Shown here in pieces: positions 15,987 through 30,643 of a stretch of 56,855 bases of DNA. Under the pieces are notes generated by a model. The model was not told the origin of the DNA and ran no database searches. It saw only the letters and a list, made by a program, of their open reading frames with translations. A program made the translations under genes and the position numbers. The DNA lies in assembly GCA_021846505.1 (NCBI GenBank), contig JAJZWV010000016.1, positions 1 through 56,855 on the forward strand. The letters are read 5' to 3'. Position 1 is the first letter of the stretch. Each line of letters opens with the position of its first letter. Source of the DNA: Bacillota bacterium. GTDB lineage: Bacteria > Bacillota > Sulfobacillia > Sulfobacillales > JAIMBI01.

Positions 15987-16550
15987 ATGAAACTGAGCAC
16001 GTGGGCGAAGGATCAAGGCATCAGCTGCCAAGCCGCGTGGCGGATGTACGGCGATGGCAAACGGCCCGTGCCCGCAGAGCAATTGCCCACCGGCACCATC
16101 ATCGTGAAGCCGCCGAAGGAGGAGCCCACCGGGGTGGCGGTCTGTGCGCGGGTGTCCTCCTCGGATCAGCGGTCCGAGTTGGATGGGCAGGTGGCCCGGG
16201 TGGTTCTGTTTGTGACGCGCAAGGGTTGGCCCGTGGTGCGCACGGTCACGGAAGTGGGCTCGGGGCTCAGTGGCCATCGCCCCCAGCTGATGAAGGTGCC
16301 CGCGGACCCGTCCGTCGCCATCGTGGCCGTCGAGCACCGAGATCGGCTCATGCGATTCGGCGCCGAATATGTCGAGGCGGCGCTGGCCGCCCAGGGCCGG
16401 CGTCTGGTGGTGGGCGATCCGGGAGAGGCCGGGGACGACTTGGGGCAGGACATGACCGACGTGCTGACCAGCCTGGGCGCGCAGTTGTCTGGGCGACGGT
16501 CAGCCCGGCACCGGGCCGAGAAGGCGCTGAAGGCGGCGAGCGAGGAATGA
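15987..16550 (+). CDS. tnpA: IS607 serine recombinase TnpA
   Basis: The 187-residue protein has the MerR-like helix-turn-helix start (MKLSTWAKDQGISCQAAWRM), then the small serine recombinase domain: CARVSSSDQRSELDGQ with the nucleophile in Ser57-Ser59, EVGSGLSGHRP, VAVEHRDRLMRFG and the C-terminal GRRSARHRAEKAL. Compared with typical IS607 recombinases it is full length and in frame. It would cut and rejoin the element ends through a covalent serine link. The only oddity is a VPADPSVA segment where LLADP-type sequence is usual. Its stop overlaps the first possible start of tnpB. Confidence 0.88.
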   Translation: MKLSTWAKDQGISCQAAWRMYGDGKRPVPAEQLPTGTIIVKPPKEEPTGVAVCARVSSSDQRSELDGQVARVVLFVTRKGWPVVRTVTEVGSGLSGHRPQLMKVPADPSVAIVAVEHRDRLMRFGAEYVEAALAAQGRRLVVGDPGEAGDDLGQDMTDVLTSLGAQLSGRRSARHRAEKALKAASEE

Positions 16551-17769
16551 CGGGTAACCAGGCAATTCGCTGCGAACTGGAGCCGACAGCGCGGCGGGAG
16601 CGGCGCGGTACGCCCACAACGGGGGTCGGGCGGTGTGCCAGCGTCTGCTGGATGCCGGGAAGCCTGTTCCGCACGCGGCGGAGATCACCGGCGATGGAGT
16701 GCGGACAAGCCGGGGCGATCCTGGGGCTGCGGCGTCTCGAAGTGCTGTAGCCAAGAGGCTTTGCGCGATTGGGACCGGGCCTTCGCCAACTTCTGGCGTG
16801 GGCGCCAGGCGGGTCGTCCCGTCGGGTTCCCGCGCTTCCGCCGCAAGCACGGGCGGTGAGACGCCTTCCGGCTCACCGGCAGCATCAAGGTCCGCCCGAG
16901 TCGGTCACGCTGCCGCGCGTGGGCGGCGTGCGGACGAAGGAAGCGACGGAGAAGTTCGGTGGCCGGATCCTCTCGGCCACCGTCAGCCGCGAGGCGGATC
17001 GCTGGTGCGTATCCCTGGCGGTGGAGGTCGAGCGCGAGGACCCGCAACCCGTCGAGGGTCCGGTGGTCGGCGTGGATTTGGGCCTCACGTCCTTCGCGGT
17101 GATCTCGGACGGAACCCGGATCGAATCGCCCAAGCCGTTGGCGCAAGCCGAGCGCCGCCTGCGCCACCGGCAGCGCCTGCACAGCCGCAAACAGCGGGGA
17201 TCGCACAACCGGCGCAAGTCGGCGGCGGGATTGGCGCGGCTGCATCGCCGCATTCGCTGTCGGCGCGCGGACTTCCTGCACAAAGCCACCACGGACCTGG
17301 CGAAAGCCCAGTCGGTCATCGTGGTCGAGGACCTTTTCGTGCAGGGCAGGATCCGCAACCACTCGCTAGCGCGCTCCGTCACGGACGCTGGGTGGTCGGA
17401 GTGCCGGCAGATGCTGGCGTACAAGACCCAGTGGTACGGATCCCAGTTGGTCATCGCCCCGCGCTTCTACCCGTCCACCAAGACCTGTTCGGCCTGTGGG
17501 GCCGTGAAGGACGAGATGCCGCTGGGGGAGCGGGTCTTCCAGTGTGCGGTGTGTGGGTTGGCGATCGACCGGGACTGGAACGCGGCGCGGAACCTCGCGC
17601 CGCTTGTCGCCGGGAGTTTCCCGGAGACGCAAAACGCCTGTGGAGGGGATGGCGCTGGCCGGGAGAGCGGCCCGGCGAAACTGGCCCCCGTGAAGCAGGA
17701 AGCATCGAGTCGGCAACCAGCGTCCCAAAGGACGCGTGGAAACAAAAGACTATGTTTGGCCGCGTGTAG
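16547..17769 (+). pseudogene. tnpB: TnpB, RNA-guided nuclease of the IS607 element, frameshifted
   Basis: The RuvC core is in one frame and complete: GVDLGLTSFAV (Asp at 17074), VIVVEDLFV (Glu at 17327), the zinc finger CSACG/CAVCG and DRDWNAARN (17567-17593). Upstream, the N-terminal half is split: AIRCELEPTA in one frame, AARYAHNGGRAVCQRLLDAG in another, EALRDWDRAFANFW in a third, then a TGA at 16858-16860 (HGR-stop-DAFRLTG) and a one-base loss before SVTLPRVGGVRTKE. At least four lesions make it inactive unless they are sequencing errors. The guide (omega) RNA would be expected from its 3' end and the right flank. Confidence 0.8.
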
Positions 17770-17788
17770 CGGCGCGACTCCCCTTTCC

Positions 17789-18652
17789 TCACAGGACGCC
17801 CAGGTCCCGCGCGAGCGCCGGCAGCCGAGTCCGCTGCAGGGCCGCGAAGGCGGCATCCCCCGCGCCGGTGCGCGCCCACCACGTATTGACCACCGTGCTG
17901 AGCACCGCGCGCGCCCACACCACCCGCTGCCACTGCTCTCGGTCCTCGGGGTGCGGCAGTGAGGCCGCCATCGCTTGGACCAGCGGATGGCCGCGCCCGT
18001 GCGTGAGCCACACATTGGCGGCCATCGAGGCCAGGTCCCACAGGGGCGGCATAAGGGCCGCGTCTTCGAAGTCGGTCCAGTGCCAGCCGCTGGGGCCCGG
18101 CAGGAGGTTGGCGGGATGTGCATCCCCATGGCAAGGCCGCAGTTGGCGGTCCTCCACAGCACCGAGCCACTGATCCATCTCCGCCCACCACCCCAGCAGG
18201 GGGCCCAGGCCGGGATCTCGGGCCGACCGCAAGAACCCGGCGGCCCTTCGCGACACGGACCACGCGCCCAGCCGCGGCAGGGGAGCGGGGCATGAGGCCA
18301 TCGCCGCCGCCAGCTGGGAGACGCGGTCGACGAGAGCGGTGGGGTCCAGGGGCTCTCGGGCCGTGGGCGGCACATAATCCCAAGCGCTGACGACCGCGCC
18401 GCCCTGGACATGAACCGGTCCGGCCCCGCCCTTCCAGGGCGGGGTAACCCGCACACCGGTGGCGTCCAAGTGCTGCGCGACCGCCACTTCGCGCTGGGCG
18501 TCCTCCCATCGTGCGGCCACCGGGTCATCCATGAGCGACGCCCGCAGCACCAGGCGGCTTCCGCCGCCGGCCACCAGGGCGATGACGTTGTAGTTGGCGG
18601 CCAGCACGGTCACGGTGGCCTGGCCGATTAGGCGCTCGGCCACCACTTCCAT
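17789..18652 (-). CDS. Aminoglycoside phosphotransferase (APH)-fold kinase
   Basis: The 287-residue protein carries the APH catalytic motif CHGDAHPANLL followed by WTDFEDA (the catalytic Asp/Asn and the DFE/DFG-like metal site), at about residues 172-195. N-terminal beta strands lead to an ALVAGGGSRLVLRAS nucleotide-loop region. APH-fold kinases phosphorylate aminoglycosides, macrolides, choline, homoserine or fructosamines; specificity cannot be assigned. It converges with the IS607 element and its 3' end almost touches the tnpB remnant. The SD before ATG 18652 is weak. It stands alone. Confidence 0.8.
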   Translation of the reverse strand: MEVVAERLIGQATVTVLAANYNVIALVAGGGSRLVLRASLMDDPVAARWEDAQREVAVAQHLDATGVRVTPPWKGGAGPVHVQGGAVVSAWDYVPPTAREPLDPTALVDRVSQLAAAMASCPAPLPRLGAWSVSRRAAGFLRSARDPGLGPLLGWWAEMDQWLGAVEDRQLRPCHGDAHPANLLPGPSGWHWTDFEDAALMPPLWDLASMAANVWLTHGRGHPLVQAMAASLPHPEDREQWQRVVWARAVLSTVVNTWWARTGAGDAAFAALQRTRLPALARDLGVL

Positions 18653-19146: not shown

Positions 19147-20073
19147 ATGCAGCTTTCCCTGTACTCATCTGTGGCCCGCACGCACCCATTTGGTCTCTAT
19201 CAAGTTATCCAATGGGCCTCTCAATTTGGCTACACCCAGATTGACATCCGCGGATCGTCGCTGTACTCGCTTTCCGTGACGGACAACTCCCGCAGAACCC
19301 TGGGATACGATATGGTCAATCCAAGCCGGATGCCGGCCCATGCCCGGCGGGATCTCGGTTCAGCGCTGCGCGATCTCAGCTTAAGCATCAGCTCGATTTC
19401 GAGTTACGTGCCCCTGACAGTGTCCGAGCCATCGCTGCAGGAACAGGCCATCGCCATGTTATGCTCTTATGTGGACTTGGCAGTTGACCTAGAATGTCCG
19501 GCCATTAGAACATATGGAAATGATGTTAATTCCCCTTTGGAGTATGAGCGTGCATTTGCCAATCACGTGGTATTGCTGCGCGAAATTGCCGCCTACGCCG
19601 CAACCCGGGGAGTGGCCATTCTGATTGAGACCAACGAAAACACCGTCACGCCCAACCTGGATGCAGCGTTCCGCGTCCATGACCACGTGGGCGCGCCAAA
19701 CCTGAAGGTGGTGCTGGATGCGGTCAACGTGTATTTCGCCGGTACACCGCTGGCCGATCTCGACGCCGAGTTTGCCAAAATTGATGCGCGAGTCGCGATG
19801 CTGCACGTCAAAAATGTCAGGATGGCGGCTAACGATGCCGTGACGTATCGTGGCAGTACGGGTCAGGACTTCGTTTGGACGGACCTCGCCTCAGGTGATG
19901 TCGACTGGCGGCACTATCTGGCCCATGCGCGAGAGCGCGGCTTCGACGGCCCGATCGTGTACGAATACGCGAATCCTTTTAAGGGGATGAGCGAGCAGTT
20001 CTGGGACCGTGTTCCCCCTCCGGATGAATCGGCACAGTCGGCGGCCCATTTTCTCCAGCAAATCATCGCATAG
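19147..20073 (+). CDS. Sugar phosphate isomerase/epimerase (xylose isomerase-like TIM barrel)
   Basis: The 308-residue protein belongs to the AP-endonuclease-2/xylose-isomerase-like barrel family that includes IolE, IolI, OtnI-related and tagatose epimerases. Signatures are YTQIDIRGSS (second strand), AIRTYGND, GVAILIETNENTV with the metal Glu, LKVVLDAVNVYF with the metal Asp, VAMLHVKN (His-x-Lys) and GPIVYEYANP with a final Glu. These fit the E-D-H-E metal site. It converges with the kinase gene three bases away and faces the sugar-acid locus, so it probably isomerises an intermediate there. The gene is visibly richer in A+T than its left-hand neighbours. SD GGGGG precedes ATG. Confidence 0.8.
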   Translation: MQLSLYSSVARTHPFGLYQVIQWASQFGYTQIDIRGSSLYSLSVTDNSRRTLGYDMVNPSRMPAHARRDLGSALRDLSLSISSISSYVPLTVSEPSLQEQAIAMLCSYVDLAVDLECPAIRTYGNDVNSPLEYERAFANHVVLLREIAAYAATRGVAILIETNENTVTPNLDAAFRVHDHVGAPNLKVVLDAVNVYFAGTPLADLDAEFAKIDARVAMLHVKNVRMAANDAVTYRGSTGQDFVWTDLASGDVDWRHYLAHARERGFDGPIVYEYANPFKGMSEQFWDRVPPPDESAQSAAHFLQQIIA

Positions 20074-20076
20074 GGG

Positions 20077-21465
20077 TTAGTCATGGCCGATGCGGTGAAG
20101 CAGGTTCCCGAGTGCTCGCTCATCCCCAATGTTGCCCGGAAAAACGATCAAGGGCATGCCCGCCCACCGAGAATCCGGCTGGCCCACCCACACCGAGACG
20201 CCTGAGGCGATTTGCCCCAGAACACGTGCCCGCCGGATGGAGAGGCCCCGCGTGGCAATCTCCCGAGCCGTGATGCCACCCTTGGCGATGACCATGCGCG
20301 GCGGCACCTCGACCGACTGCACGATTTCAACGAGCGCATCGGCCACCTCCTGGCCAATGCGCAGCGTCTCCGTCCGCTGTTGGCCGCGAATGGGCGTGCG
20401 GCTGGTGGACACGACGACATGCGTTCCGCGCCCAAGGCCCTCGTTCACCGCTCGGACCGCTTCGGCCACAGCCGACGGCCGGTGCCCGCTCATCAGGCCC
20501 GGGACATCCACCTCTACGTGCTTGAGCGCCACGGCGTCAAGCGCATGCGCCAGCTGCCGCGTCGTGCTCTCCACGTGGGAGCCGACCACGACGAGAGCGC
20601 CGTGCGCCCGAATGTCATCCGGCGCGGGCAGGTGTTCGATCCAACCTGACGCAGCAGGCTGACCGCTGTAAGACTTCACGAAGGATGAGGCGGTCCGGAA
20701 AAGGAGCCGCTGCCCGTGTGCCTGGCGCTCCAACACCGCCAAGCTGAGAACATCCAGGTCCTCGTAGCTGACAGCATCCACGATGACGGGTACATTGCCC
20801 TGCGCCGTGGCCAGGCGCTCCGCCACGGCCCTCGGGCCGCTGCGCGTCACCTCGAGGGGAATCAGCAAGCAGTCGCTCGCCGCCAGGCGGCCAGCCGACT
20901 TCTCCTCGACCCACTGGCGAAGGTTCGATGATCGATAGCCAAACATGTGGTCCTTGGCGAATTCCGTCGCGCTCACGGGGACAAGCTGTGCACCGCGACG
21001 CAAATAGTGCCGCCCGTGATAGGTGATGCGGCCCTCCTCAACGTAAGCCGGCACCAGCAGGTGCGCATCATACGGCGCCAGGGCCGCCGCGGCCAATACG
21101 TCCACTTCGAGGGGATAGTGGCCCCGCAGGGTAGAATCGGCACGCAGAACCACGTCGAAGGAGGTGGCTGTCTTCTCGGCCACCTGCTGAAGAGACGCGA
21201 CAGCGTCCTTTATAATGGCTCGGGCTTCCTCTGGCGAATGCGCTCGCGTGTTGGTCAAAACGTAGAAGAAATCGCTCGGGTCACGAAACGCCTGCTGCAG
21301 ATTGTCGGGGCGCCAGTCGGTCAGCACGGAAACCTCGGAGAGTGTCTGGGCCCCGGTGGGGTCATCATCCAGCACGATGAGCTTCGTGCGTCGAGCCGCA
21401 CGGCGCTGGCGAATTTCCCGGCGCATATCGGCAAGTCCGACCCACGGCGGCGGAACCCGGCCCAT
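20077..21465 (-). CDS. Four-carbon acid sugar kinase (OtnK/DtnK, DUF1537 family)
   Basis: The 462-residue protein begins its conserved part with LIVLDDDPTGAQT, the diagnostic motif of the four-carbon acid sugar kinase N-domain, followed by VLTNTRAHSPEEA and RADSTLRGHYPLE. The C-domain shows VVVGSHVES, VVVSTSRTP, AKGGITAREIA and VFPGNIGD, which bind nucleotide. The family phosphorylates D-threonate, D-erythronate, L-threonate or 3-oxo-tetronate. With PdxA2 in the same operon, D-threonate or D-erythronate to the 4-phosphate is most likely. ATG 21465 is a choice; ATG 21489 overlaps the upstream stop and is possible. It is the last gene of the six-gene leftward operon. Confidence 0.88.
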   Translation of the reverse strand: MGRVPPPWVGLADMRREIRQRRAARRTKLIVLDDDPTGAQTLSEVSVLTDWRPDNLQQAFRDPSDFFYVLTNTRAHSPEEARAIIKDAVASLQQVAEKTATSFDVVLRADSTLRGHYPLEVDVLAAAALAPYDAHLLVPAYVEEGRITYHGRHYLRRGAQLVPVSATEFAKDHMFGYRSSNLRQWVEEKSAGRLAASDCLLIPLEVTRSGPRAVAERLATAQGNVPVIVDAVSYEDLDVLSLAVLERQAHGQRLLFRTASSFVKSYSGQPAASGWIEHLPAPDDIRAHGALVVVGSHVESTTRQLAHALDAVALKHVEVDVPGLMSGHRPSAVAEAVRAVNEGLGRGTHVVVSTSRTPIRGQQRTETLRIGQEVADALVEIVQSVEVPPRMVIAKGGITAREIATRGLSIRRARVLGQIASGVSVWVGQPDSRWAGMPLIVFPGNIGDERALGNLLHRIGHD

Positions 21466-21481
21466 CCTAGCGCTTGGCCCC

Positions 21482-22438
21482 CTACTCATCGGTGGACGCG
21501 TCGCGATCTTGCACCCACCGGCGGATGAGGTCCCGCTCGCGCGCGCCATCCATCCGACGCATCTCTTCATCGGGCCACGGGTAGAATCCGCGCCCAGCCT
21601 TCTCGCCGACGGCGCCCTGGCTCACCAGCGCCCGGAGCTCCCCGCCCGGCTCGCGTCCAGCACTGAGAGTCGGAAAGAGATATGCTGAAATAGCCTCAAA
21701 CACATCGAGCCCTCCCATATCCGCCGTTCGAAAGGGTCCCGTGACACCCAGGCGCCGTCCCAGCGTTAGCTCTGCCGCCAGGTCGATGTCCGCCGCCGAA
21801 GCCACCCCCTGCTCCAGCAGGTACTGCGCTTCGCGAAACAGCGCGTACTGGAGCCGGTTTCCAATGTAGCCAGGCACCTCTTTATGGACCACGATGGCGC
21901 GCTTGCCCATTTGGCCGACGGTGTCAATTACCCGGCGGATCGCATTCGGATGGGTGCAGCGGCCCGGAACCACCTCCACCAGGGGCATCAGATGCGCCGG
22001 GTTCCAGAAGTGCGCGACCAACGCTCGGTCCGGGCTGGCGATCCGCTCAAATATTGCGGTGGGGCTGAGTCCCGACGAGTTGCTGGCAATGACGGCGTCG
22101 CGGCCGCACTGCGACTCGACGTCACAGAAGAATGCCTGCTTGTGGGCGAGGTCTTCCGGGATCGCCTCGACGATCAGCACGGCACCGTCCACACCAGCGG
22201 ATAGCGACTCCACGAATTTAATGCGATTCAAGACGCCCTCCTCGCCTGCCGGGAGGGCCCCTTCCGCCGAAAGGGTGCGGAGCTTCTCGAGGATGCGACG
22301 GCGTGCCTGGGCCAAATCCTCGGGGGAAATGCCCCAGAGGCGGACGGGCCGGCCTGCTAGCGCTGCCGCCAGCGCAATCGAGTGGCCCATGGTTCCGGCA
22401 CCGAGCACCGCCACCGGCTGATAGGGCCCGCTGTCCAT
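21482..22438 (-). CDS. 3-hydroxyacyl-CoA dehydrogenase-family oxidoreductase (gulonate/carnitine dehydrogenase-like)
   Basis: The 318-residue NAD-dependent enzyme starts with the Rossmann motif VAVLGAGTMGHSIALA and continues VEAIPEDLAHKQ, SNSSGLSPT, ALVAHFWNPAHLMPLVEVVPG with the catalytic His-Asn pair, and VPGYIGNRLQYALFREA. The HFWNPAHL form, instead of the HFFNP of fatty acid enzymes, is typical of relatives acting on small hydroxy acids: L-gulonate 3-dehydrogenase, L-carnitine dehydrogenase. In this operon a sugar acid is the likely substrate. ATG 22438 overlaps the previous stop (TGATG) and has GGGAGGCG 6 bases upstream. Substrate unproven. Confidence 0.8.
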   Translation of the reverse strand: MDSGPYQPVAVLGAGTMGHSIALAAALAGRPVRLWGISPEDLAQARRRILEKLRTLSAEGALPAGEEGVLNRIKFVESLSAGVDGAVLIVEAIPEDLAHKQAFFCDVESQCGRDAVIASNSSGLSPTAIFERIASPDRALVAHFWNPAHLMPLVEVVPGRCTHPNAIRRVIDTVGQMGKRAIVVHKEVPGYIGNRLQYALFREAQYLLEQGVASAADIDLAAELTLGRRLGVTGPFRTADMGGLDVFEAISAYLFPTLSAGREPGGELRALVSQGAVGEKAGRGFYPWPDEEMRRMDGARERDLIRRWVQDRDASTDE

Positions 22439-23151
22439 CAGACACGCCTCCCGCTCGCCGGTGTGGCCCTGGCCAGTAGGTCGACCTCGGCCAGGATCGT
22501 GCATGGGCTGCTGTCCACGTCCTCAATCAGCAGTGGCACGACGTAGACGCGATCAATGCGGCCACGGCATCTGGTCAGGTCGACGTCCTCCAAGATGAAG
22601 AACGGCTGAGCTCCCGGCCGATGGGTGCCCAGCACCTTCTGATGAAATGCGAGGCCCGCCTCCAAGTGCTGGGCAGCCGATGCGGACGGTGTGTCCAGCC
22701 CCACGGCGCGGAGGGTAGGGAAGCGGAGGAAAAACTCCCCCGCGGATTCGTCAAACCCAGGATTGTGCCACCCATATCGGTGTGGGTCCGCCCTTCGCAC
22801 CACGCCGAAGCCCGTTCGCAGCAGCAAAAGGTCGGCCCCATCCAGCTGTTCGGCTAAGGGCTCAAGGCGGTCCGCTGTGATGAGGCCATCCTCCCCAGTG
22901 AGAAGCTCCGCCAGCACGACCGCTTCAAAGACCATCTGGGCCGCCGTCAGTTGCGAAACTGCCATGCCGTTGGGATTGAAGTGCCGCGGGCAATCCATGT
23001 GGGTGCCGCTGTGCGTGATGGCAGCAACCCACGATTGGTCGAATGGGTCGCCCTGATCCATTGCACGCTGGCGGCGCACTTGTACCGGCGGGTTGTCTCG
23101 GTATGCGGGCGTGCGCGGTCCCAGTGGATACGACAGCAAGTATCGCGTCAC
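22438..23151 (-). CDS. Cyclase-family hydrolase (kynurenine formamidase-like)
   Basis: The 237-residue protein has the family metal motif HSGTHMDCPRHF (H-x-G-T-H-x-D-x-x-x-H) at about residues 47-58 and opens with YLLSYPLGPRTPAY, as kynurenine formamidases and isatin hydrolases do. VGLDTPSAS and IDRVYVVPLLIEDVDSSPC are further family segments. Such Mn/Zn enzymes hydrolyse cyclic or formylated amides and lactone-like rings, so a role as a sugar-acid lactonase is possible in this operon, but that is inference. GTG 23151 matches family starts; ATG 23178, which overlaps the pdxA2 stop, is the alternative. Confidence 0.8.
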   Translation of the reverse strand: MTRYLLSYPLGPRTPAYRDNPPVQVRRQRAMDQGDPFDQSWVAAITHSGTHMDCPRHFNPNGMAVSQLTAAQMVFEAVVLAELLTGEDGLITADRLEPLAEQLDGADLLLLRTGFGVVRRADPHRYGWHNPGFDESAGEFFLRFPTLRAVGLDTPSASAAQHLEAGLAFHQKVLGTHRPGAQPFFILEDVDLTRCRGRIDRVYVVPLLIEDVDSSPCTILAEVDLLARATPASGRRV

Positions 23152-23174
23152 GCACTCCTCTCCCCCTTCGGCGC

Positions 23175-24191
23175 TCATCTGGCTGAGTGTTGGCGTACGC
23201 CCCACAGAGCCGCCGCGCGCAGGGCCGCGACTTGCCCGTGCGCGTTGGCCTCGCCACGCCCCGCAATATCAAAGGCTGTCCCATGATCCACCGACGTGCG
23301 AAGCACCGGAAGCCCGAGGGTGACGCTCACGGTGCCGTAGAAATCCAATGTCTTTGCCGCAATGTGCCCCTGATCATGATAGAGGGACAGCACGCCGGCA
23401 TAGCGACCCATCCGAGTCTGATAGAAGACGGCGTCGGCAGGAATGGGCCCCTCGACGCGGAAGCCCGCGTCCTTTGCCTGCCGGATGGCGGGCGCCAGAA
23501 CCGCCCGCTCTTCCGTGCCCAGCAGGCCGTTCTCGCCTCCGTGCGGGTTCAAGGCGGCCACAGCGAGCGTCGGGCGCTGCACTCCCAGCTCCTCAAGGAA
23601 GCCAAGGCAGCGGGTGATGCCGGAGTGCACACGGTCCGCGGTCAGGAGGCCAGGGACCGCGCTCAGCGGGTGGTGCCGCGTGAGAAAAAAGATCCGCAGC
23701 GGCCCCACCTCAAACATGGTATATACGCCCTCCGCGCCAAACAGCTCGGTCAGCATCTCGGTGTGGCCGGGATAGTGGTAACCCGCCAAGCGCAGCGCCT
23801 CTTTGTTAAGCGGGGCCGTGCTCATCACATCCACGGCTCCCACCTTGGCCGCGTCGACCACGCCCAATATGGCGCGTCCTGCCTCGTCTCCGCCCCGGGC
23901 ACTCACTGCACCGAAGGGCACCGGCTCCGCATCGCGGGAGGTGGCCACCAGGAACAGAGCCTCTTGACCATCCTCCACGCTCCGGGGGTCGTCGACGACC
24001 GCCACTTGGCGAGTGGCGCCCAGCAGGGTGAGTGCCGACTGCAGCACATGGGGATTGCCAAACAAGACGGGAGTCCACTGGCGCTCAGCTTCCAACTCCA
24101 GCAGAGCTTTGACGACAATTTCGGGTCCAATGCCCGCCGGATCCCCGAGTGTGATGCCAATGCGCGGGAGTCTCTCCGAAACATTCGCCAT
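23175..24191 (-). CDS. pdxA2: PdxA2-type 4-phospho-threonate/erythronate dehydrogenase
   Basis: The 338-residue protein is of the PdxA family: ITLGDPAGIGPEI at the start, DVMSTAPLNKEALRLAGY, YPGHTEMLTELF (metal His), AALNPHGGENGLLG, YHDQGHIAAK and TSVDHGTAFDIAG. PdxA makes vitamin B6, but the copy here sits beside a DUF1537 kinase, the known arrangement of PdxA2, which oxidises and decarboxylates D-threonate 4-phosphate or D-erythronate 4-phosphate to dihydroxyacetone phosphate. ATG 24191 follows AAAGGGG at a suitable distance. No other B6 gene is near. The start of the next gene lies at its stop, so the two are coupled or closely spaced. Confidence 0.85.
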   Translation of the reverse strand: MANVSERLPRIGITLGDPAGIGPEIVVKALLELEAERQWTPVLFGNPHVLQSALTLLGATRQVAVVDDPRSVEDGQEALFLVATSRDAEPVPFGAVSARGGDEAGRAILGVVDAAKVGAVDVMSTAPLNKEALRLAGYHYPGHTEMLTELFGAEGVYTMFEVGPLRIFFLTRHHPLSAVPGLLTADRVHSGITRCLGFLEELGVQRPTLAVAALNPHGGENGLLGTEERAVLAPAIRQAKDAGFRVEGPIPADAVFYQTRMGRYAGVLSLYHDQGHIAAKTLDFYGTVSVTLGLPVLRTSVDHGTAFDIAGRGEANAHGQVAALRAAALWGVRQHSAR

Positions 24192-24230
24192 TCCCAACAC
24201 CCCTTTAGGACTTCTTGAGCAGCGCCTAGG

Positions 24231-25025
24231 CTATCCGGCATCTGGTGGCCCACCGCCCTGTGGGCCCGTGGGCGCCAAGCAAAACGCCAGGCCGGATGCT
24301 TCAAGCCGCTGCTGCTGCCGCGCGGTGATGCGGTCGTCAATTAAAAGCGTGGCATCGTCCGGCAGCGGCGTCACAAATCCGTACCGGGGTTCTTCCAGCT
24401 TCGTGTGATCCGCCACCACGTAAACGTGGCGCGCGGCCTTCATCATCGCCCCCTTGAGATACGCCTGTGCAAGGGTAGGCGAGACCAGCGAACGACTCTC
24501 CAGATTCACGCCATATGCACCCATGAATGCCCGATCCGGGCGAATGTGCCGCAGGTTGTCTTCCGTCAGCGACCCCATGACGGCCTGGTTCATCGGCCGC
24601 AGCACGCCGCCGAGCATGATGACCTCAAAGGAGTCAAACGGGAGGAGCGCCACCAAGATGTTCACGGCGTTGGTCACCACCGTAATCTGGTGAAACCGGG
24701 TCAGCTCCCGAGTGATAGCGCCGGTCGTCGTCCCTGCATCCAGCAGCACCACCTCGGCATCCTGGATGTGGGAAACCGCCAGCCGTCCTATCGCCATCTT
24801 CTCGGCCACATGCGTTCGGGACTTCTCTGGCACACTTGGCTCGCCTGGTATCTCAATCGCGCCCCCGTGCACGCGGAGCACGAGGCGCTGCTCCTCAAGA
24901 ACCTGGAGGTCGCGCCGGATGGTGGCGGCGGACGCGCCGGTGAGGCGTTGCAGGTCAGCCAATCCAACCTGCTTGTGCGCCTCCACCGCCTCAAGAATTT
25001 GCCGCTGTCTCGCTTCGGCCGACAT
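24231..25025 (-). CDS. DeoR-family transcriptional regulator
   Basis: The 264-residue protein has the DeoR N-terminal helix-turn-helix (RQRQILEAVEAHKQVGLADL, then LTGASAATIRRDLQVLEEQ, then VHGGA) and the sugar-phosphate-sensing DeoRC domain with LDAGTTTGAITREL, TVVTNAVNILVAL, VIMLGGVLR and VADHTKLEEPRYGFV. It most likely represses this locus and is released by a phosphorylated intermediate. The ATG at 25025 follows GGGGGCGG; it lies 16 bases after the glycosidase-like gene. Dyads in the divergent region 26014-26232 are its candidate operators. Confidence 0.88.
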   Translation of the reverse strand: MSAEARQRQILEAVEAHKQVGLADLQRLTGASAATIRRDLQVLEEQRLVLRVHGGAIEIPGEPSVPEKSRTHVAEKMAIGRLAVSHIQDAEVVLLDAGTTTGAITRELTRFHQITVVTNAVNILVALLPFDSFEVIMLGGVLRPMNQAVMGSLTEDNLRHIRPDRAFMGAYGVNLESRSLVSPTLAQAYLKGAMMKAARHVYVVADHTKLEEPRYGFVTPLPDDATLLIDDRITARQQQRLEASGLAFCLAPTGPQGGGPPDAG

Positions 25026-25041
25026 GAGCCGCCCCCGCTTC

Positions 25042-26013
25042 TTAGCCCGTCTCGACCACGCTGTGTCGGAGCTCGTGTGCGCCATCGTCGCGCGCATACT
25101 CGTAGAAATAATGAAGCGTGGTGCCTCGCACCACCACATCAATGTACCGCAGCGAGCCACTGCCCTGCTTAGACCACAGCCGCGGCCCCCCGGCATCCAC
25201 TTTCACAAAGGTTTTCAGATCAAAAGATACCGCCAGGCCCGCACGGTCCTGGTACGTTTCACCGGTGTGAGAGCGCCCATCAAACAGCATCCAGTAGACA
25301 CCGTCCCGGGGAACAATCGTCGACCCCCGCGCTAGGAGGTAGTCCCAGCCCGACCCTGGCTCAAGCAAGGTGCCGGCCCACTCGAAGTGTATCCCGTCGA
25401 CGCTGTACGCCAACCCGGTCTTTGACCGTAAGCGGCCCGTCGCAAAGGCGTTTTCGGTCCCATGCATCTCGTCCGCGCTGATGGGGAAGTCCGGGCGCGA
25501 CACGAAGTTGACCATAATGTACGTCACCGGACCCACCATGAAGACGAACGGGTCCTTTACACCTTCTAGGTCAAACTCCTCTGCTGTCAGCGCAGGTTGG
25601 CGGTCGGCCGCCTTTAGATCCGCCGGGTCATGGGCTTCGATCAGGTCTATCCGCCACCGGCGATCGGCGGGGTCCACGTAGCTGCAGTATAGACGCCAGG
25701 ATCCCGCAGGCGTCAGCTGGAGCGCCGAGCGCTCGATTGATGCGGAGTGCAGCTCGTCGGCCGTGATTTCAGCCAATGGCGTGAATTTCATGCCGTCCGC
25801 GCTTTCCGCAATACGGCAGGCGATGCCCCTCCCCCGCCCAATGGGATGCCGCACCCGGTAGGCCATAACAAATCGCTGGCGCTGCCCGTCGTACACGACC
25901 GACGGTGCCCCCACCCAAAAGTCTCGCTCGGGACGGTCTGGCTCGACGATCACGGTGCCGCTGTCAGGCTCGAATAGAGGCAAAGAAGACCACTGCCGGT
26001 CGGCATCAGCCAC
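25042..26013 (-). CDS. Five-bladed beta-propeller, glycosidase (GH43-like) fold
   Basis: The 323-residue protein has repeated propeller-type segments: FWVGAPSVVYDGQRQRFVMA, RLYCSYVDPADRRWRIDL, GVKDPFVFMVGPVTYIM, GLAYSVDGIHFEWAG and VYWMLFDGRSHTGE. W-x-G-A-P and V-K-D-P-F acids at the blade starts and a glutamate region later resemble the GH43/GH62/GH32-superfamily active site. No signal peptide is seen, so if it is a glycosidase it works inside the cell on an imported substrate. GTG 26013 is preferred over GTG 26070 because AAGGGGG precedes it by 9 bases. It is the first gene of the leftward operon. Confidence 0.7.
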   Translation of the reverse strand: MADADRQWSSLPLFEPDSGTVIVEPDRPERDFWVGAPSVVYDGQRQRFVMAYRVRHPIGRGRGIACRIAESADGMKFTPLAEITADELHSASIERSALQLTPAGSWRLYCSYVDPADRRWRIDLIEAHDPADLKAADRQPALTAEEFDLEGVKDPFVFMVGPVTYIMVNFVSRPDFPISADEMHGTENAFATGRLRSKTGLAYSVDGIHFEWAGTLLEPGSGWDYLLARGSTIVPRDGVYWMLFDGRSHTGETYQDRAGLAVSFDLKTFVKVDAGGPRLWSKQGSGSLRYIDVVVRGTTLHYFYEYARDDGAHELRHSVVETG

Positions 26014-26055
26014 GAAGACAACCCCCTTGTTTGTGAGTGCCACGAGCACAGCGAT

Positions 26056-26068
26056 GAGTGTATCACTC
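26056..26068. promoter_or_regulatory. Dyad GAGTG-TAT-CACTC in the divergent region
   Basis: A 5-3-5 inverted repeat between the leftward glycosidase-like gene and the rightward MFS gene. It overlaps an alternative GTG start of the leftward gene and is a candidate operator. Confidence 0.4.
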
Positions 26069-26115
26069 ACGACCTCTTCAATCCACTCTCAGCAGATCAG
26101 GCTCAAGAGGCCGCC

Positions 26116-26129
26116 GAAAAAAGTTTTTC
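26116..26129. promoter_or_regulatory. Dyad GAAAAA-AG-TTTTTC, candidate DeoR operator
   Basis: An exact 6-2-6 inverted repeat, the most A+T-rich point of the divergent region. DeoR-family proteins often bind repeats containing GAAA/TTTC. It lies 104 bases before the MFS start and 103 before the leftward start. Confidence 0.45.
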
Positions 26130-26232
26130 TGTCCATCAGGCCGCGCCAAGAAGGATTGCGCGGATGCTTCACCGAATCATCACAAATGCGCGATACGCGC
26201 ACGTCCCAGTTTTTGGAGGAGGAGGGACCGCC

Positions 26233-27498
26233 GTGAGAATGGCACCAAGTGTTCCCAGGCTCCGATGGACACGCATCATGCCCATCGCCATCGCGATGTA
26301 CACGATTTCCTTCATGGACCGGATTAACCTCTCATTCGCCACCACGGGCATGTCCAAGGACTTCGGCCTAACGGCGACCGGCGTGGGCTTAATTCTTGGT
26401 CTTTTCTTCATAGGGTACTTGGTCCTGCAAGTGCCGGGTGGCTACCTGGCAGAGCGGTGGAGCGCAAAGAAGTTCATCTTCTGGCTGCTGATCGTGTGGG
26501 GAATCTTCGCCGCCATGAGCGGCCTGGCGCAAAATTCCACACAGGAGCTGTGGATTCGATTCTTCTTGGGGGTCGCCGAAGGCGGCATTTGGCCCGCGAC
26601 CCTCGTGCTGCTGTCCAATTGGTTCCCGCGGGAGGAGCGTGCCCGAGCCAACGGCCTGTGGGTTATCTGCCTGCCTCTGGCGGCAGCCATCACGTCGCCG
26701 ATCTCCGGCGCCTTGGTCGCTTCCGTCGGCTGGCGGCTCATGCTTGTATTTGAAGGAATCCCCCCACTGATTTGGGCGGGGCTCTGGTGGTGGGGCATCG
26801 AAGACCGCCCGGAACAGGCCAAGTGGCTCTCCACCAGCGAGCGCGAGTTCATCACGACACGGATCAAGGCCGAGCGACGGCCCACAACCGGCACGATTTG
26901 GAGCGTGCTCCTCGAGCCGTCGATGTGGATTCTGTCTGCCGCCTACTTTCTGACCATCATGGGTGGCTATGGGCTGAATCTCTGGACGCCGACCATCGTT
27001 CACTCGATCGGGGTGGGTTTTCTCGGCACGGGACTTCTGCTCGTCATCCCCAACGGGGCGGCGGTTTGGCTTCTAATTTCGGCAGGCCAATACTCTGACC
27101 GCATTGGCAAGCGCATCGCGGTGTCCGTCGGGGTTCTGTGCATTTCGTTTGTGGGCTACCTACTTCTGGGGGTTATCGGAACCGGAATTGTTGCCTTAGC
27201 CATCCTGTTTCTGGCACTGGCGACCGCAGGCTTTTATGCCCGGCAGGGACCCCTGTGGGCCATTCCCACGGAGGTGCTGCCGGCAGGTACGGCGGGAACG
27301 GCGATGGGGCTCATCAACGGCATCGGCAATATCGGTGGGTTTGTGGGCCCGTTCGTGTTTGGCTACTTGAAAACCACCACGCACTCCTTTACGGCCGGAT
27401 ACTTCGTGATGGGCCTCGCGATTCTCGCGGGCGCAGCCGTGCTGCTTACCGTCAAGGAGCGGCGCGTTCAGCCCGACGCCACGGCCGCAGTGGGATAG
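26233..27498 (+). CDS. MFS transporter, anion:cation symporter (sugar acid) type
   Basis: The 421-residue protein has about 12 hydrophobic segments. After the first helix, SFMDRINLSFA is the D-R-x-N signature of the anion:cation symporter subfamily, which imports hexuronates, glucarate, galactonate and similar acids with protons. GYLVLQVPGGYLAERWSAKK (helices 2-3 loop) and EGGIWPATLVLLSNWFPREE (helix 5) agree. GTG 26233 has GGAGGAGGGA directly upstream; ATG 26239 is close and possible. It heads the rightward operon of the sugar-acid locus and most likely imports the pathway substrate. A 16-bp hairpin follows its stop. Confidence 0.88.
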   Translation: MRMAPSVPRLRWTRIMPIAIAMYTISFMDRINLSFATTGMSKDFGLTATGVGLILGLFFIGYLVLQVPGGYLAERWSAKKFIFWLLIVWGIFAAMSGLAQNSTQELWIRFFLGVAEGGIWPATLVLLSNWFPREERARANGLWVICLPLAAAITSPISGALVASVGWRLMLVFEGIPPLIWAGLWWWGIEDRPEQAKWLSTSEREFITTRIKAERRPTTGTIWSVLLEPSMWILSAAYFLTIMGGYGLNLWTPTIVHSIGVGFLGTGLLLVIPNGAAVWLLISAGQYSDRIGKRIAVSVGVLCISFVGYLLLGVIGTGIVALAILFLALATAGFYARQGPLWAIPTEVLPAGTAGTAMGLINGIGNIGGFVGPFVFGYLKTTTHSFTAGYFVMGLAILAGAAVLLTVKERRVQPDATAAVG

Positions 27499-27529
27499 CC
27501 GTACGGTGGCACCCTCAGCGAGCCGTTGC

Positions 27530-27565
27530 GAGGCGAGGACGCCGATTTGTCGGCATCCTCGCCTC
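27530..27565 (+). terminator. Strong hairpin between the MFS and dehydratase genes
   Basis: Arms 27530-27545 and 27550-27565 form a 16-bp stem with one mismatch and a TTTG loop. No T-run follows, so it is more likely an intercistronic attenuator or mRNA-stability element than a full terminator. The next gene starts 27 bases later. Confidence 0.65.
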
Positions 27566-27591
27566 ACATTATCAGAAGAGGGGATGGCCTC

Positions 27592-28767
27592 GTGAAGATT
27601 GTCGACGTTCGGGTGCGCTTTTTCCGATATCGCCCGCCCAATCCACTCGTCAGCAGCATTGGCCGCCGCCGGTTTCGCCTGTTGTGCCTGGTGGAGCTGA
27701 CGGCGGCCAGCGGGCAGGTGGGCGTGGGGGAAAGTTGGGTCAACTTTCCCTCCTGGGTCGCCGCGGAGCGCCACGCCACCATAACGGAGGGCATCGCACC
27801 GCTACTGGTCGGTCGCGATGCGGCAGACGTGATTGGCACGCAGCAGCGCCTCTGGGCCGATCTGGCTCCTATCGGCCGGCAGGGCGGCATAGCCGGAGCA
27901 GTGTCTCAGGCCCTCAGCGGTGTGGACTTAGCGCTGTGGGACCTGTTGGGCAAGGATCGCGGCCTCCCGGTGTACCGCATGCTTGGCGGCGGACGCCAGC
28001 GGGTCCCCGTCTATGCGTCCGGCCTCGGACCCCAGCTGGACGAAAACAGGGTGCACACACTAATGGCCCGAGGCATTGGCGCCTTTAAGATCAAAGTGGG
28101 ATTTGGCCACGCCGAGGATTATACGCAGGTGGCCCGCCTGCGGCAGCTGGTCGGGGACGGCGGACGAATCATGGTTGACGCCAACCAGGGCTGGCAGACG
28201 CCGAATGAGGCGCTGCTGGCCATAAGGAAGCTTGCTCCCCTTGGGCTGGAGTGGGTCGAAGAGCCGCTGCCCGCTGACGACTGGGAAGGCATGGCTTACG
28301 TCACCTCGCGGTCGCCCGTTCCCATCAGCGCCGGTGAGAATCTCTATGGGCGAGCTGCCTTCGCGCGGTGGGCCCACCGGCGCGCGTTCAACATCGCACA
28401 GCCGGACCTCACGAAAGTTGGTGGATTCACCGAGGCGTGGGCCATCGCGCAGATGATGCCGGCATACGGACTCGCGTGGGCTCCCCATTTCTTGGGCGGC
28501 GCCGTGGGGCTGGCCGCTACCTGCCATCTGTTTGCACTGGTGCCGGGTGGCATCGCCGTGGAGCTGGACAGCAATCCCAACGCCTTGCGCGATGGGATAG
28601 CCGCGCTGCCCTTTCCCGCTGCGGTCGAAGACGGGCACATCGTGCTGCCCGACACCCCAGGGTGGGGCCTCACGCTCCGTGAGGACTTACTGACTGTCCA
28701 CGAAGTGCCTTGGCAGGAGGCATGGCGGGAAGCGGATCCCCCTGCCGATTCACCTAGCCAGAAGTAA
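27592..28767 (+). CDS. Enolase-superfamily acid-sugar dehydratase (mandelate racemase type)
   Basis: The 391-residue protein shows the full mandelate-racemase-type site: Lys166-x-Lys168 (FKIKVG), metal ligands Asp196 (VDANQGW), Glu223 (VEEPLP) and Glu249 (AGENLYG), and the catalytic His299 in WAPHFLGG. Enzymes of this group abstract the alpha proton of a sugar acid and most often dehydrate it to a 2-keto-3-deoxy acid. The aldolase gene next door supports dehydration. GTG 27592 follows AGAGGGGA at good spacing; the open frame further upstream overlaps the hairpin. The exact substrate is unknown. Confidence 0.85.
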   Translation: MKIVDVRVRFFRYRPPNPLVSSIGRRRFRLLCLVELTAASGQVGVGESWVNFPSWVAAERHATITEGIAPLLVGRDAADVIGTQQRLWADLAPIGRQGGIAGAVSQALSGVDLALWDLLGKDRGLPVYRMLGGGRQRVPVYASGLGPQLDENRVHTLMARGIGAFKIKVGFGHAEDYTQVARLRQLVGDGGRIMVDANQGWQTPNEALLAIRKLAPLGLEWVEEPLPADDWEGMAYVTSRSPVPISAGENLYGRAAFARWAHRRAFNIAQPDLTKVGGFTEAWAIAQMMPAYGLAWAPHFLGGAVGLAATCHLFALVPGGIAVELDSNPNALRDGIAALPFPAAVEDGHIVLPDTPGWGLTLREDLLTVHEVPWQEAWREADPPADSPSQK

Positions 28768-28806
28768 GGAGGATTCCCTCACGGCAGAGAGATGGGAGGC
28801 TTCATC

Positions 28807-29700
28807 ATGCCAGATTTGTACCCAGCAGTGCTCACGATAACGCAGGCGGCCCCGCACGAGGATCCAGGCACCAGCGGCGAGGTCGACTTGAACGCCATGC
28901 GGCAATACCTGGACTGGATCTGTGGCCCCCGCAACAGCGACGGATTGTTTGCACTGGGCACGACGGGCCTGGGCCCGATCCTGCCCTGGCCACAACATCA
29001 GGAGGTGCTGCACCTCATTCGCGATGTGAGCAAGATTCCGGTCGTGGTTATGGTGGGGCCTCCCCTGCCTTCGGCTCCTCTCCTGGAAAAATTGGCGTGG
29101 CTCCACGCCCACCACTTGGAGGCCGTCGCCCTGCTGCCTCCCCTGTACTACGATTTTCCCGCCGAGGCACAGGTCGAGACACTGGCCGCGGCCGCAAGAT
29201 CCTGGCGTGGCGCCGTATGGCTGTATAACATTCCCCAGCGTGTAGGATACGCGCTCAGCCATGATACCGTCGCCCGCGTCGTGGAGCGCTGTCCAAACGT
29301 GGTGGGCATCAAGGATTCAAGCGGCGACGGGGGCAATATTCCTGTCTGGCGTCAGATATTTGGCCAGGGCCGCGTTTTCTGCGGCGCCGAGCCGGTGGCG
29401 CTGCCGAGCTTGCTGGCAGGGGCGGATGGTCTGGTGTCCCAATATGCCAGCGTGCTTCCGGAGGTAGGGAGGGCGCTTGCCACCGACCAGAGGGCAGGCC
29501 GCAAGCAACTTCAGGCGTCCCTCAACCGCCTCATCCAGCGCTCGGCCCACCTTCCCTTGATAAGTCTTTTGGGTGAGCTAGGGTTTCGGCGGGGAATCCT
29601 TCCTCGGCCCGCGCTGCCTCCATGGCCGGCGCTGGAGGACTCCGCGCGCCCTCTAGTGCACGAGTGGCTGGCCCTGGGCCAAATCGTCAATGCGCGCTAG
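28807..29700 (+). CDS. DapA-family 2-keto-3-deoxy acid aldolase
   Basis: The 297-residue class I aldolase has the family landmarks: LFALGTTGLGP (the G-T-T-G substrate loop), Tyr140 in WLYNIPQRVG, and the Schiff-base Lys169 in VGIKDSSGD. Its neighbour is an acid-sugar dehydratase, so it most likely cleaves a 2-keto-3-deoxy acid into pyruvate and an aldehyde, rather than making lysine precursors. ATG 28807 is preferred to ATG 28792 because GGGAGG lies 7 bases upstream. The gap to the dehydratase gene is 39 bases. Confidence 0.85.
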   Translation: MPDLYPAVLTITQAAPHEDPGTSGEVDLNAMRQYLDWICGPRNSDGLFALGTTGLGPILPWPQHQEVLHLIRDVSKIPVVVMVGPPLPSAPLLEKLAWLHAHHLEAVALLPPLYYDFPAEAQVETLAAAARSWRGAVWLYNIPQRVGYALSHDTVARVVERCPNVVGIKDSSGDGGNIPVWRQIFGQGRVFCGAEPVALPSLLAGADGLVSQYASVLPEVGRALATDQRAGRKQLQASLNRLIQRSAHLPLISLLGELGFRRGILPRPALPPWPALEDSARPLVHEWLALGQIVNAR

Positions 29701-29803
29701 GCCGGGCTTACGGGAGCGTCTTCACACAGCCGGGCCCGCCAGTCATCCAACACTCGACTCGCCGTCAAGCCAGAAAAAAGGCAGAAAGAAGGTCGTCACT
29801 CCA

Positions 29804-30643
29804 ATGCTCGTCAATCTGCGCACAGCGTTGGCGCGGGCCCCGGTGTGTTTTGGCTTCAACGTGACCAGCTTGGAAATCCTGGATGCACTGGTGAGTGTCG
29901 GCGAAGCGTCGCCAGCTGCCACGATACTGCAGATGACAGACCGCTACATCGACCACTTCGGCGAGCCCCTGATCCGCCAGTGGATCCGGCCGCGCCTGGC
30001 CGCTTCACCCCAAGCGTTTGTCCTGCATCTCGATCACGGCGTCAGCATCGGGACCATTGACCGGGCGCTTCGCCTAGGGTTCACGTCTGTCATGTACGAC
30101 GGCTCGCGGCTTGCGCTCGCGGACAATATTGCCCAGACACGGCTGGCCGCCGAGAAAGCTCGACACGTCAACGCCTCCCTCGAGGCAGAGGTGGGGCACG
30201 TCGGCGGACAGGAAGATGGGGCGGCGGCCGAAGACTCATGGCTCACCACCGTCGAGGAGGCCCGGGCGTTCGCTGCCGGCGTCCAGGTGGACGCCTTGGC
30301 CATCTCCGTCGGGACAGCTCACGGCGGCCGCCCCGGTAACCTATCGCCAAATCTTCGTGTGGACCGCATTCGAGACATCGCCGCCGCGGTCAGGGTCCCG
30401 CTCGTCCTTCATGGGGGCAGCGGAGTGTCCCCCGCCCTGCTTCAGCGTGCCATCGAGGCTGGAATCCGCAAGGTGAACATTGGCACCGAACTCAAGCGGG
30501 CGTGGGCCGAAAGCTTTCCGGCCGCCCTCCGCGAGACCCGTGAGCCGTGGCAGGTCCGCGATCTGGTTGTCGTGCGCCTCATGGCCGTCATCCGGCACTT
30601 CGGGCGCATCACGAGGACCGGCGAGGAGTCCCAGCCCCCTTGA
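29804..30643 (+). CDS. Class II fructose-bisphosphate/tagatose-type aldolase
   Basis: The 279-residue protein has the zinc-aldolase motifs: FVLHLDHG (Asp-His), LEAEVGHVGGQEDG (His), ISVGTAHGGRPG (His), VLHGGSGVSP (His) and RKVNIGTEL (phosphate binding). It is of the GatY/KbaY/FbaA type, joining or cleaving DHAP-derived sugar phosphates. DHAP is the product expected from the kinase plus PdxA2 branch of this locus, which suggests a link between the two operons, although an aldolase could equally use its own phosphorylated substrate. It is the last gene of the rightward operon. ATG 29804 has AAAGAAGG upstream at 11 bases. Confidence 0.85.
   Translation: MLVNLRTALARAPVCFGFNVTSLEILDALVSVGEASPAATILQMTDRYIDHFGEPLIRQWIRPRLAASPQAFVLHLDHGVSIGTIDRALRLGFTSVMYDGSRLALADNIAQTRLAAEKARHVNASLEAEVGHVGGQEDGAAAEDSWLTTVEEARAFAAGVQVDALAISVGTAHGGRPGNLSPNLRVDRIRDIAAAVRVPLVLHGGSGVSPALLQRAIEAGIRKVNIGTELKRAWAESFPAALRETREPWQVRDLVVVRLMAVIRHFGRITRTGEESQPP

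Follow-up and report, generated by a model that had tools for sequence, protein, structure and literature searches.

A rare, probably horizontally acquired gene island of acid-sugar catabolic type in a Sulfobacillales genome and its relationship to described catabolic gene clusters

Closest described systems

This work concerns an island of 11 intact genes of acid-sugar catabolic type, which is located at positions 19147-30643 of contig JAJZWV010000016.1 from a Bacillota bacterium of the order Sulfobacillales (assembly GCA_021846505.1; 3.58 Mb in 119 contigs). The contig was analysed over its whole length of 56,855 nucleotides and it is referred to below as the window. The island encodes, among other proteins, a DUF1537 kinase and a PdxA2-type dehydrogenase, and a D-threonate pathway proceeding via DtnK and PdxA2 was reportedly described by Zhang et al. 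in 2016 (PNAS). The island is similar to this pathway in having DUF1537 and PdxA2 in one operon, with PdxA2 outside vitamin B6 synthesis, but it differs in that its kinase is not of the DtnK type by either model score or tree.

A second described system is the three-step LtnD/2-OtnK/2-OtnC pathway for L-threonate/D-erythronate, which in Arthrobacter leads from L-threonate to dihydroxyacetone phosphate (DHAP), and in which 2-OtnC carries an F_bP_aldolase domain and has a decarboxylating role (PMC12540250, citing Guo 2024). For land plants, the same source proposes that the three enzymes are present as one fused polypeptide, LTD (AT1G18270). The island shares with this system a DUF1537 kinase together with a partner of the F_bP_aldolase family, and its kinase belongs to the branch associated with GarR/LtnD and fructose-bisphosphate-aldolase (FBA) type proteins. 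However, it contains a protein of the 3-hydroxyacyl-CoA-dehydrogenase family (HCDH) and no LtnD/GarR homologue among its 11 genes, it has PdxA2 and a cyclase-family hydrolase in addition, and its FBA-type gene lies in the opposite operon and in another branch of the tree. With regard to the four-step LtnD/OtnI/3-OtnK/3-OtnC pathway (E. coli ygbJKLM), no real match to YgbL was found among the 11 proteins and HCDH showed none to YgbJ (E 0.17); the isomerase-like protein HYI was rejected as an OtnI, as its best match to YgbM has an E value of 0.34.

The other half of the island resembles the non-phosphorylative route of Sulfolobus/Thermoproteus (2-keto-3-deoxygluconate (KDG) aldolase 2r91), where likewise an aldolase of the DapA superfamily, bearing the motif GTTGLGP, comes after a dehydratase of the mandelate racemase (MR) type, but the island enzymes score below the curated cut-offs and are set among genes for four-carbon acids. 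Lastly, uncharacterised Iso_dh/cyclase/DUF1537/MFS/Gfo-Idh operons of Bacteroidota, Planctomycetota and Verrucomicrobiota share with the island a cyclase, a kinase of the same branch, an MFS transporter, a sugar dehydrogenase and a beta-decarboxylating dehydrogenase, whereas they have Iso_dh in place of PdxA2 and Gfo/Idh in place of HCDH, and neither the dehydratase nor a KDG-type aldolase was seen in them. A closely homologous cluster to which a substrate has been assigned would speak against novelty of the set; one was looked for and none was found. An earlier sequence-only reading of the window had stated that these genes do not correspond to any described pathway; this is correct of the set taken together, although a counterpart has been described for each of its halves. 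The island is a variant within a known kind of gene cluster for acid-sugar catabolism, and its combination of two routes and its natural substrate are undescribed in the literature searched.

Organization, conservation and origin of the island

Profile searches detected the families which that reading had named, viz. AP_endonuc_2, DUF1537 (SBD_N + NBD_C), 3HCDH, Cyclase, PdxA, DeoR, MFS, MR_MLE, DHDPS/DapA and class II F_bP_aldolase, and the beta-propeller was recognised through its predicted fold, which is GH43/GH130-like. Several start codons set too early in the list of open reading frames (ORFs) were revised from Shine-Dalgarno-like sequences and from conservation in a genome of the same genus (G001). 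The genes of the island are:

19147..20073, + strand: HYI, AP_endonuc_2 TIM-barrel isomerase/epimerase/decarboxylase-like protein (PF01261, 1.4e-28; 77% orthologue in G001)
20077..21441, - strand: DUF1537 acid-sugar kinase of the FBA-associated (2-OtnK-like) branch (PF07005/PF17042, tree, neighbourhoods; start codon uncertain)
21482..22441, - strand: HCDH, 3-hydroxyacyl-CoA-dehydrogenase family, probable sugar-acid dehydrogenase (PF02737/PF00725)
22438..23148, - strand: CYC, metal-dependent cyclase-family hydrolase, proposed lactonase/esterase (PF04199, 4.7e-22)
23175..24185, - strand: PdxA2-type beta-decarboxylating dehydrogenase (PF04166, 6e-89; D-threonate-4-phosphate dehydrogenase 6e85 at 5.5e-66)
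24231..25025, - strand: DeoR-family regulator (HTH_DeoR + DeoRC; 82% identity in G001)
25042..26013, - strand: PROP, unclassified five-bladed beta-propeller, GH43/GH130-like fold (AlphaFold + Foldseek; revised start GTG 26013, proposed)
26233..27498, + strand: MFS transporter, D-galactonate/anion-cation symporter subfamily (TIGR00893, 272.6 bits, cut-off 395; revised start GTG 26233, proposed)
27577..28767, + strand: MRD, enolase-superfamily (mandelate racemase subgroup) acid-sugar dehydratase (PF13378/PF02746; start codon uncertain)
28792..29700, + strand: DAPA, DapA-superfamily pyruvate aldolase, KDG-aldolase type (PF00701; 2r91 match)
29804..30643, + strand: FBA, class II fructose-bisphosphate-aldolase-family enzyme (PF01116, 1.7e-65; revised start ATG 29804, proposed)

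The left operon (- strand) reads in the order propeller, DeoR, PdxA2, cyclase, HCDH and kinase, and the right operon (+ strand) in the order MFS, dehydratase, DapA-type aldolase and FBA-type aldolase. The four-carbon-acid module is adjacent to the dehydratase-aldolase module, and the two divergent operons contain a single DeoR gene, as had been claimed from the sequence, but the isomerase gene is convergent with the left operon and lies outside both of them.

All 11 genes are found in unchanged order in G001, where identities range from 68 to 90%. In the ten genes that were compared by codon position (all but MFS), the substitutions relative to G001 amount to 0.42-0.53 at position 3 and to 0.06-0.24 at positions 1 and 2, and no inner stops were seen in these ten. 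Because the differences are concentrated at third codon positions, the ten proteins are maintained under purifying selection. The MFS reading frame is open across 444 amino acids and is 90% identical to the G001 copy (tblastn). The kinase is carried by only 2 of the 42 genomes of the order. The GC content of the island is 0.635 compared with about 0.685 for its flanks (0.648 versus 0.68-0.69 in G001), and the G001 orthologue (79%) of a carboxyltransferase gene from the right flank is not on the contig that carries the G001 island. The rarity within the order, the lower GC content and the separate location of the flank orthologue suggest that the island was probably acquired horizontally, with differing insertion points in the two genomes. 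That the island serves acid-sugar catabolism is very probable; the fuller interpretation, towards which we cautiously lean, is that of a rare island, probably gained by horizontal transfer, whose genes for acid-sugar catabolism are run as one regulon.

The control region shared by the two operons

With the starts of the propeller at 26013 and of MFS at 26233, the divergent region between the operons is 219 bp long; the starts were placed at these positions because of a Shine-Dalgarno-like sequence, the low model confidence over the first 27 residues encoded by the longer ORF of the propeller, and the conservation in G001. Two perfect 6-3-6 inverted repeats are present in this region:

26055..26069, no strand: palindrome TGAGTGTATCACTCA, identical in G001, proposed DeoR operator 1
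26187..26201, no strand: palindrome TGCGCGATACGCGCA, identical in G001, proposed DeoR operator 2

Both repeats are invariant in G001 despite drift of the neighbouring intergenic DNA, and two such repeats arose in only 2 of 5000 mononucleotide shuffles of the divergent region. The consensus TGMGYGNWNCRCKCA occurs at five sites genome-wide, of which two are in the divergent region; upstream of the isomerase gene no site of this type was found. By their position, the two palindromes resemble DeoR operators serving both operons, and they are proposed as such. Lack of co-regulation would have counted against joining the two operons; instead, because two perfect palindromes are conserved in the shared promoter region, it is probable that the divergent operons share one regulator.

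The DUF1537 kinase and its neighbourhoods

In the kinase, the motifs LDDDPTG, STLRGH and KGGIT are invariant. The DUF1537/PdxA2 pair had been taken for the known D-threonate/D-erythronate route, and this assignment was not supported: with the DtnK (D-threonate kinase) model, which has a cut-off of 450, the kinase reaches 96.5 bits, with the OtnK (3-oxo-tetronate kinase) model, where the cut-off is 350, it reaches 59.8 bits, and it falls in a separate branch of the DUF1537 tree, whose usual neighbours are GarR/LtnD-like and FBA-type proteins. These models do recognise the other DUF1537 branch, since two DUF1537 proteins from the compared loci (L069 and L136) reach 235-266 bits with at least one of them. 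The routine annotation of a DUF1537 + PdxA pair as a D-threonate route can therefore mislead, and the family has a separate and widespread branch in which the proteins tested here reached no curated equivalog model.

Scanning of GTDB genomes gave 80 loci with kinases 34-44% identical to that of the island, and loci from plasmids and from Bacillota were added for the comparison of neighbourhoods. The partners found near the branch kinases across phyla are GarR/LtnD-type dehydrogenases (24 loci), FBA-type aldolases (19 loci, the window included), MFS transporters (16, the window included) and cyclases (15). Several sets of neighbours are repeatable, among them GarR/LtnD + kinase + GntP, to which an FBA-type aldolase is often added, Iso_dh + cyclase + kinase + MFS + Gfo/Idh, and split transketolase + kinase + IlvB-like + isomerase; these sets invite substrate screens. 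Examples of the third set, with an IlvB/glyoxylate-carboligase-like enzyme and an AP_endonuc_2 isomerase, are the loci L070-L073, L078 and L058/L079. Operons of the second set, in which Iso_dh is tartrate-dehydrogenase-like and Gfo/Idh is usually present, were seen in L097 (8234-13636), L098, L113, L114, L115, L122, L142, L143, L085, L088 and L089. Near the operon of L088 (Thermogutta) there is a DUF5060/apiosidase-like protein, and from this single neighbour came the tentative idea that such operons may serve apiose.

In the tree, the window kinase groups with kinases of actinobacteria, although the support is modest (84). These kinases are from a Rhodococcus locus, which contains an MR-type gene, a racemase, the kinase and FBA, and from a Curtobacterium locus, which contains the kinase, PdxA, GntR and MFS. 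Of the two DUF1537 genes in the Rhodococcus record, the one adjacent to FBA matches the window kinase and the one adjacent to PdxA does not. Because the FBA-associated branch matches the published LtnD/2-OtnK/2-OtnC route, the window kinase is best read, from its branch and neighbours, as 2-OtnK-like.

PdxA2 and HCDH

PdxA2 passes the general PdxA model and scores 242.8 bits against the D-threonate-4-phosphate dehydrogenase equivalog, short of the cut-off of 583. A role in vitamin B6 synthesis was rejected, and the enzyme is placed outside the PdxA/PdxJ route, because PdxJ is absent from the host genome and PdxS is present. This genome contains one DUF1537 gene and a second PdxA homologue (contig C70, 40554-41414; L152), which lies beside an acetyltransferase-like gene and is not adjacent to DUF1537.

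HCDH matches lambda-crystallin of the gulonate dehydrogenase family at 1.6e-36. Its closest plasmid relative (46%) is on a plasmid of Alicyclobacillus fastidiosus (L164), where the neighbours are a sugar isomerase, MFS, RpiB, DhaK/DhaL, TPI-like and DeoR genes. The presence of DhaK/DhaL, TPI-like and RpiB genes gives this locus a suggestive resemblance to an erythrulose-type or erythrulose-phosphate route. Other relatives of HCDH sit in ketone-body-like clusters, and apart from the Alicyclobacillus locus the neighbourhoods of cyclase or HCDH relatives gave no consistent hint of a substrate.

The dehydratase-aldolase module

The dehydratase, whose nearest solved structure is 3ddm, retains when aligned to it the complete catalytic set within residues 170-333 (KxK, the D-E-E metal ligands, the D-H dyad and E). 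Among curated models, it is matched best by those of talarate/galactarate dehydratases and of archaeal arabinonate dehydratase (154.8 bits), but all of them remain below cut-off. The neighbourhoods of its plasmid relatives in Bradyrhizobium and Paracoccus, which lie beside GMC-type oxidoreductases, showed no consistent substrate hint. DAPA contains the catalytic Tyr (YNIP), the Schiff-base Lys (GIKDSS) and GTTGLGP, the KDG-aldolase motif of the archaeal (Sulfolobus) enzyme. It matches the Thermoproteus KD(P)G aldolase 2r91 at 2e-15 and scores 72.9 bits against the curated KDG-aldolase model, which has a cut-off of 390 that is not reached. Among plasmids, matches to DAPA and HYI were weak or none. 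On these family assignments, MFS, the dehydratase and DAPA would together convert an aldonate to pyruvate and an aldehyde by a conventional route of the non-phosphorylative type, and dehydration followed by KDG-type cleavage is, on balance, favoured for the two enzymes.

Proposed pathway and alternative interpretations

Catalytic motifs are intact in the dehydratase, the aldolases, PdxA2, the cyclase and the kinase. In the proposed scheme, the DeoR protein would bind both palindromes and repress both operons until an acid-sugar effector is present, and MFS would import the acid. The dehydratase would form a 2-keto-3-deoxy acid, from which the DapA-type aldolase would release pyruvate and a short aldehyde. 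A lactone or ester may be opened by the cyclase-type hydrolase of the left operon, and HCDH may oxidise a hydroxyl of the acid. The kinase of this operon would place a phosphate on C4 of the four-carbon acid (or of its oxo form), and decarboxylation by PdxA2 and/or the FBA-type enzyme would lead to DHAP. For this conversion of a four-carbon acid to DHAP by the left operon, we regard the case as evenly balanced.

Several observations weigh against the interpretation as a whole. None of the enzymes attains the cut-off of any curated model for a specific substrate, and PdxA2 passes the general model only. PdxA2 and the FBA-type aldolase would be redundant in a single route to DHAP, and the window FBA lies outside both clades of kinase-adjacent FBAs in the tree, although its placement in one of them is not rejected. 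The cyclase is just 22-30% identical to those near other branch kinases, where a match was scored, and the binding of DeoR to the palindromes is deduced from position only.

The alternative which survives best, and which is a serious contender although somewhat short of an even chance, is that two independent pathways, viz. a Sulfolobus-like non-phosphorylative hexonate/pentonate route and a tetronate route, are stacked under a common regulator with neither feeding the other. A stand-alone counterpart is described for each half, and the branch kinases mostly occur without an MR dehydratase or a KDG-type aldolase nearby. However, the 11 genes form a single conserved block with shared conserved operators (as proposed above), and MR-family genes are also found beside kinase and FBA in SAR202 (L107) and in Rhodococcus (L049), although the Rhodococcus protein shares only 25% identity with the dehydratase of the window.

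A further alternative, which is tentative but deserves attention, concerns the FBA-type enzyme, in which the metal and DHAP-site motifs HLDHG, GTAHG, HGGSG and NIGTEL are present. It is the sole PF01116 protein of the host genome, G001 has the island copy alone, and none was found in five relatives that are without the island (G002-G006); due to this, a housekeeping role was rejected and the enzyme is taken as dedicated to the island. IolJ cleaves a phosphorylated keto-acid to DHAP and an oxo-acid. The window FBA may similarly be an aldolase that cuts or joins C-C bonds rather than a decarboxylase, either splitting the phosphate of a longer keto-acid, as produced by the kinase, into DHAP and an oxo-acid, or joining DHAP to the aldehyde released by DAPA. 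Consistent with this, its gene is in the same operon as the DapA-type aldolase, and in the tree it groups (94/91) with FBAs adjoining PfkB-type sugar kinases in relatives from the order and not with kinase-adjacent ones. However, its constrained placement in one kinase-adjacent clade was not rejected (approximately unbiased (AU) test, p 0.07), so that membership in the 2-OtnC-type FBAs is not supported by the tree but also not rejected, and a decarboxylating F_bP_aldolase partner of a DUF1537 kinase has been published for the three-step route (PMC12540250).

It is unlikely that the 11 genes constitute one undescribed pathway for a larger conjugated or lactonised acid sugar, in which the propeller and cyclase would release the acid, the dehydratase and aldolase would convert part of it to pyruvate, and the remaining four-carbon acid would be converted to DHAP by the 2-OtnK-like kinase in a novel pairing with both PdxA2 and the FBA-type enzyme. 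A plain D-threonate route (DtnK + PdxA2) with unrelated neighbours is less likely still, as the kinase is in the other branch and far under the DtnK cut-off and the conservation extends to a block of 11 genes, despite DUF1537 and PdxA2 being in one operon and PdxA2 being close to D-threonate-4-phosphate dehydrogenase. For the island itself, the conserved putative operator pair and the dedicated aldolase make both its co-regulation and its substrate directly testable.

The propeller, the cyclase and neighbouring features

The AlphaFold model of the propeller has a pLDDT of 85 (below 50 for residues 1-27 of the longer ORF), and the sequence AAGGGGG is present upstream of its GTG start. The model matches five-bladed propellers of the GH43/GH130 type (Foldseek 4e-13; Z 25-27 over about 265-295 residues), whereas the sequence has no Pfam, NCBIfam or PDB sequence match. 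The earlier description of this protein as glycosidase-like is thus borne out for the five-bladed GH43/GH130 fold but not for membership in a sequence family. Homologues (L021-L034; 32-42%) are present in relatives from the order and form a family without a Pfam entry; they adjoin ROK-type repressors, sugar ABC transporters, and Gfo/Idh-like and AP_endonuc_2-like genes (names read by eye). Because of the adjoining ROK-type repressors and sugar-transport genes, a sugar-related role of the propeller is likely.

The cyclase contains the metal motif HSGTHMDxPxHF, and the 15 loci with a PF04199 gene near a branch kinase are from Bacteroidota, Planctomycetota, Verrucomicrobiota and Thermomicrobiales. 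This recurrent proximity suggests a common step, such as opening of a lactone or ester; a search for a pathway with a cyclase and DUF1537 returned nothing relevant in the literature covered. HYI reached no NCBIfam equivalog. About 1.2 kb from the left end of the island (window 15987-17962, + strand), an IS607-type-like element was noted by eye, with a serine-recombinase-like ORF and, after it, one resembling TnpB.

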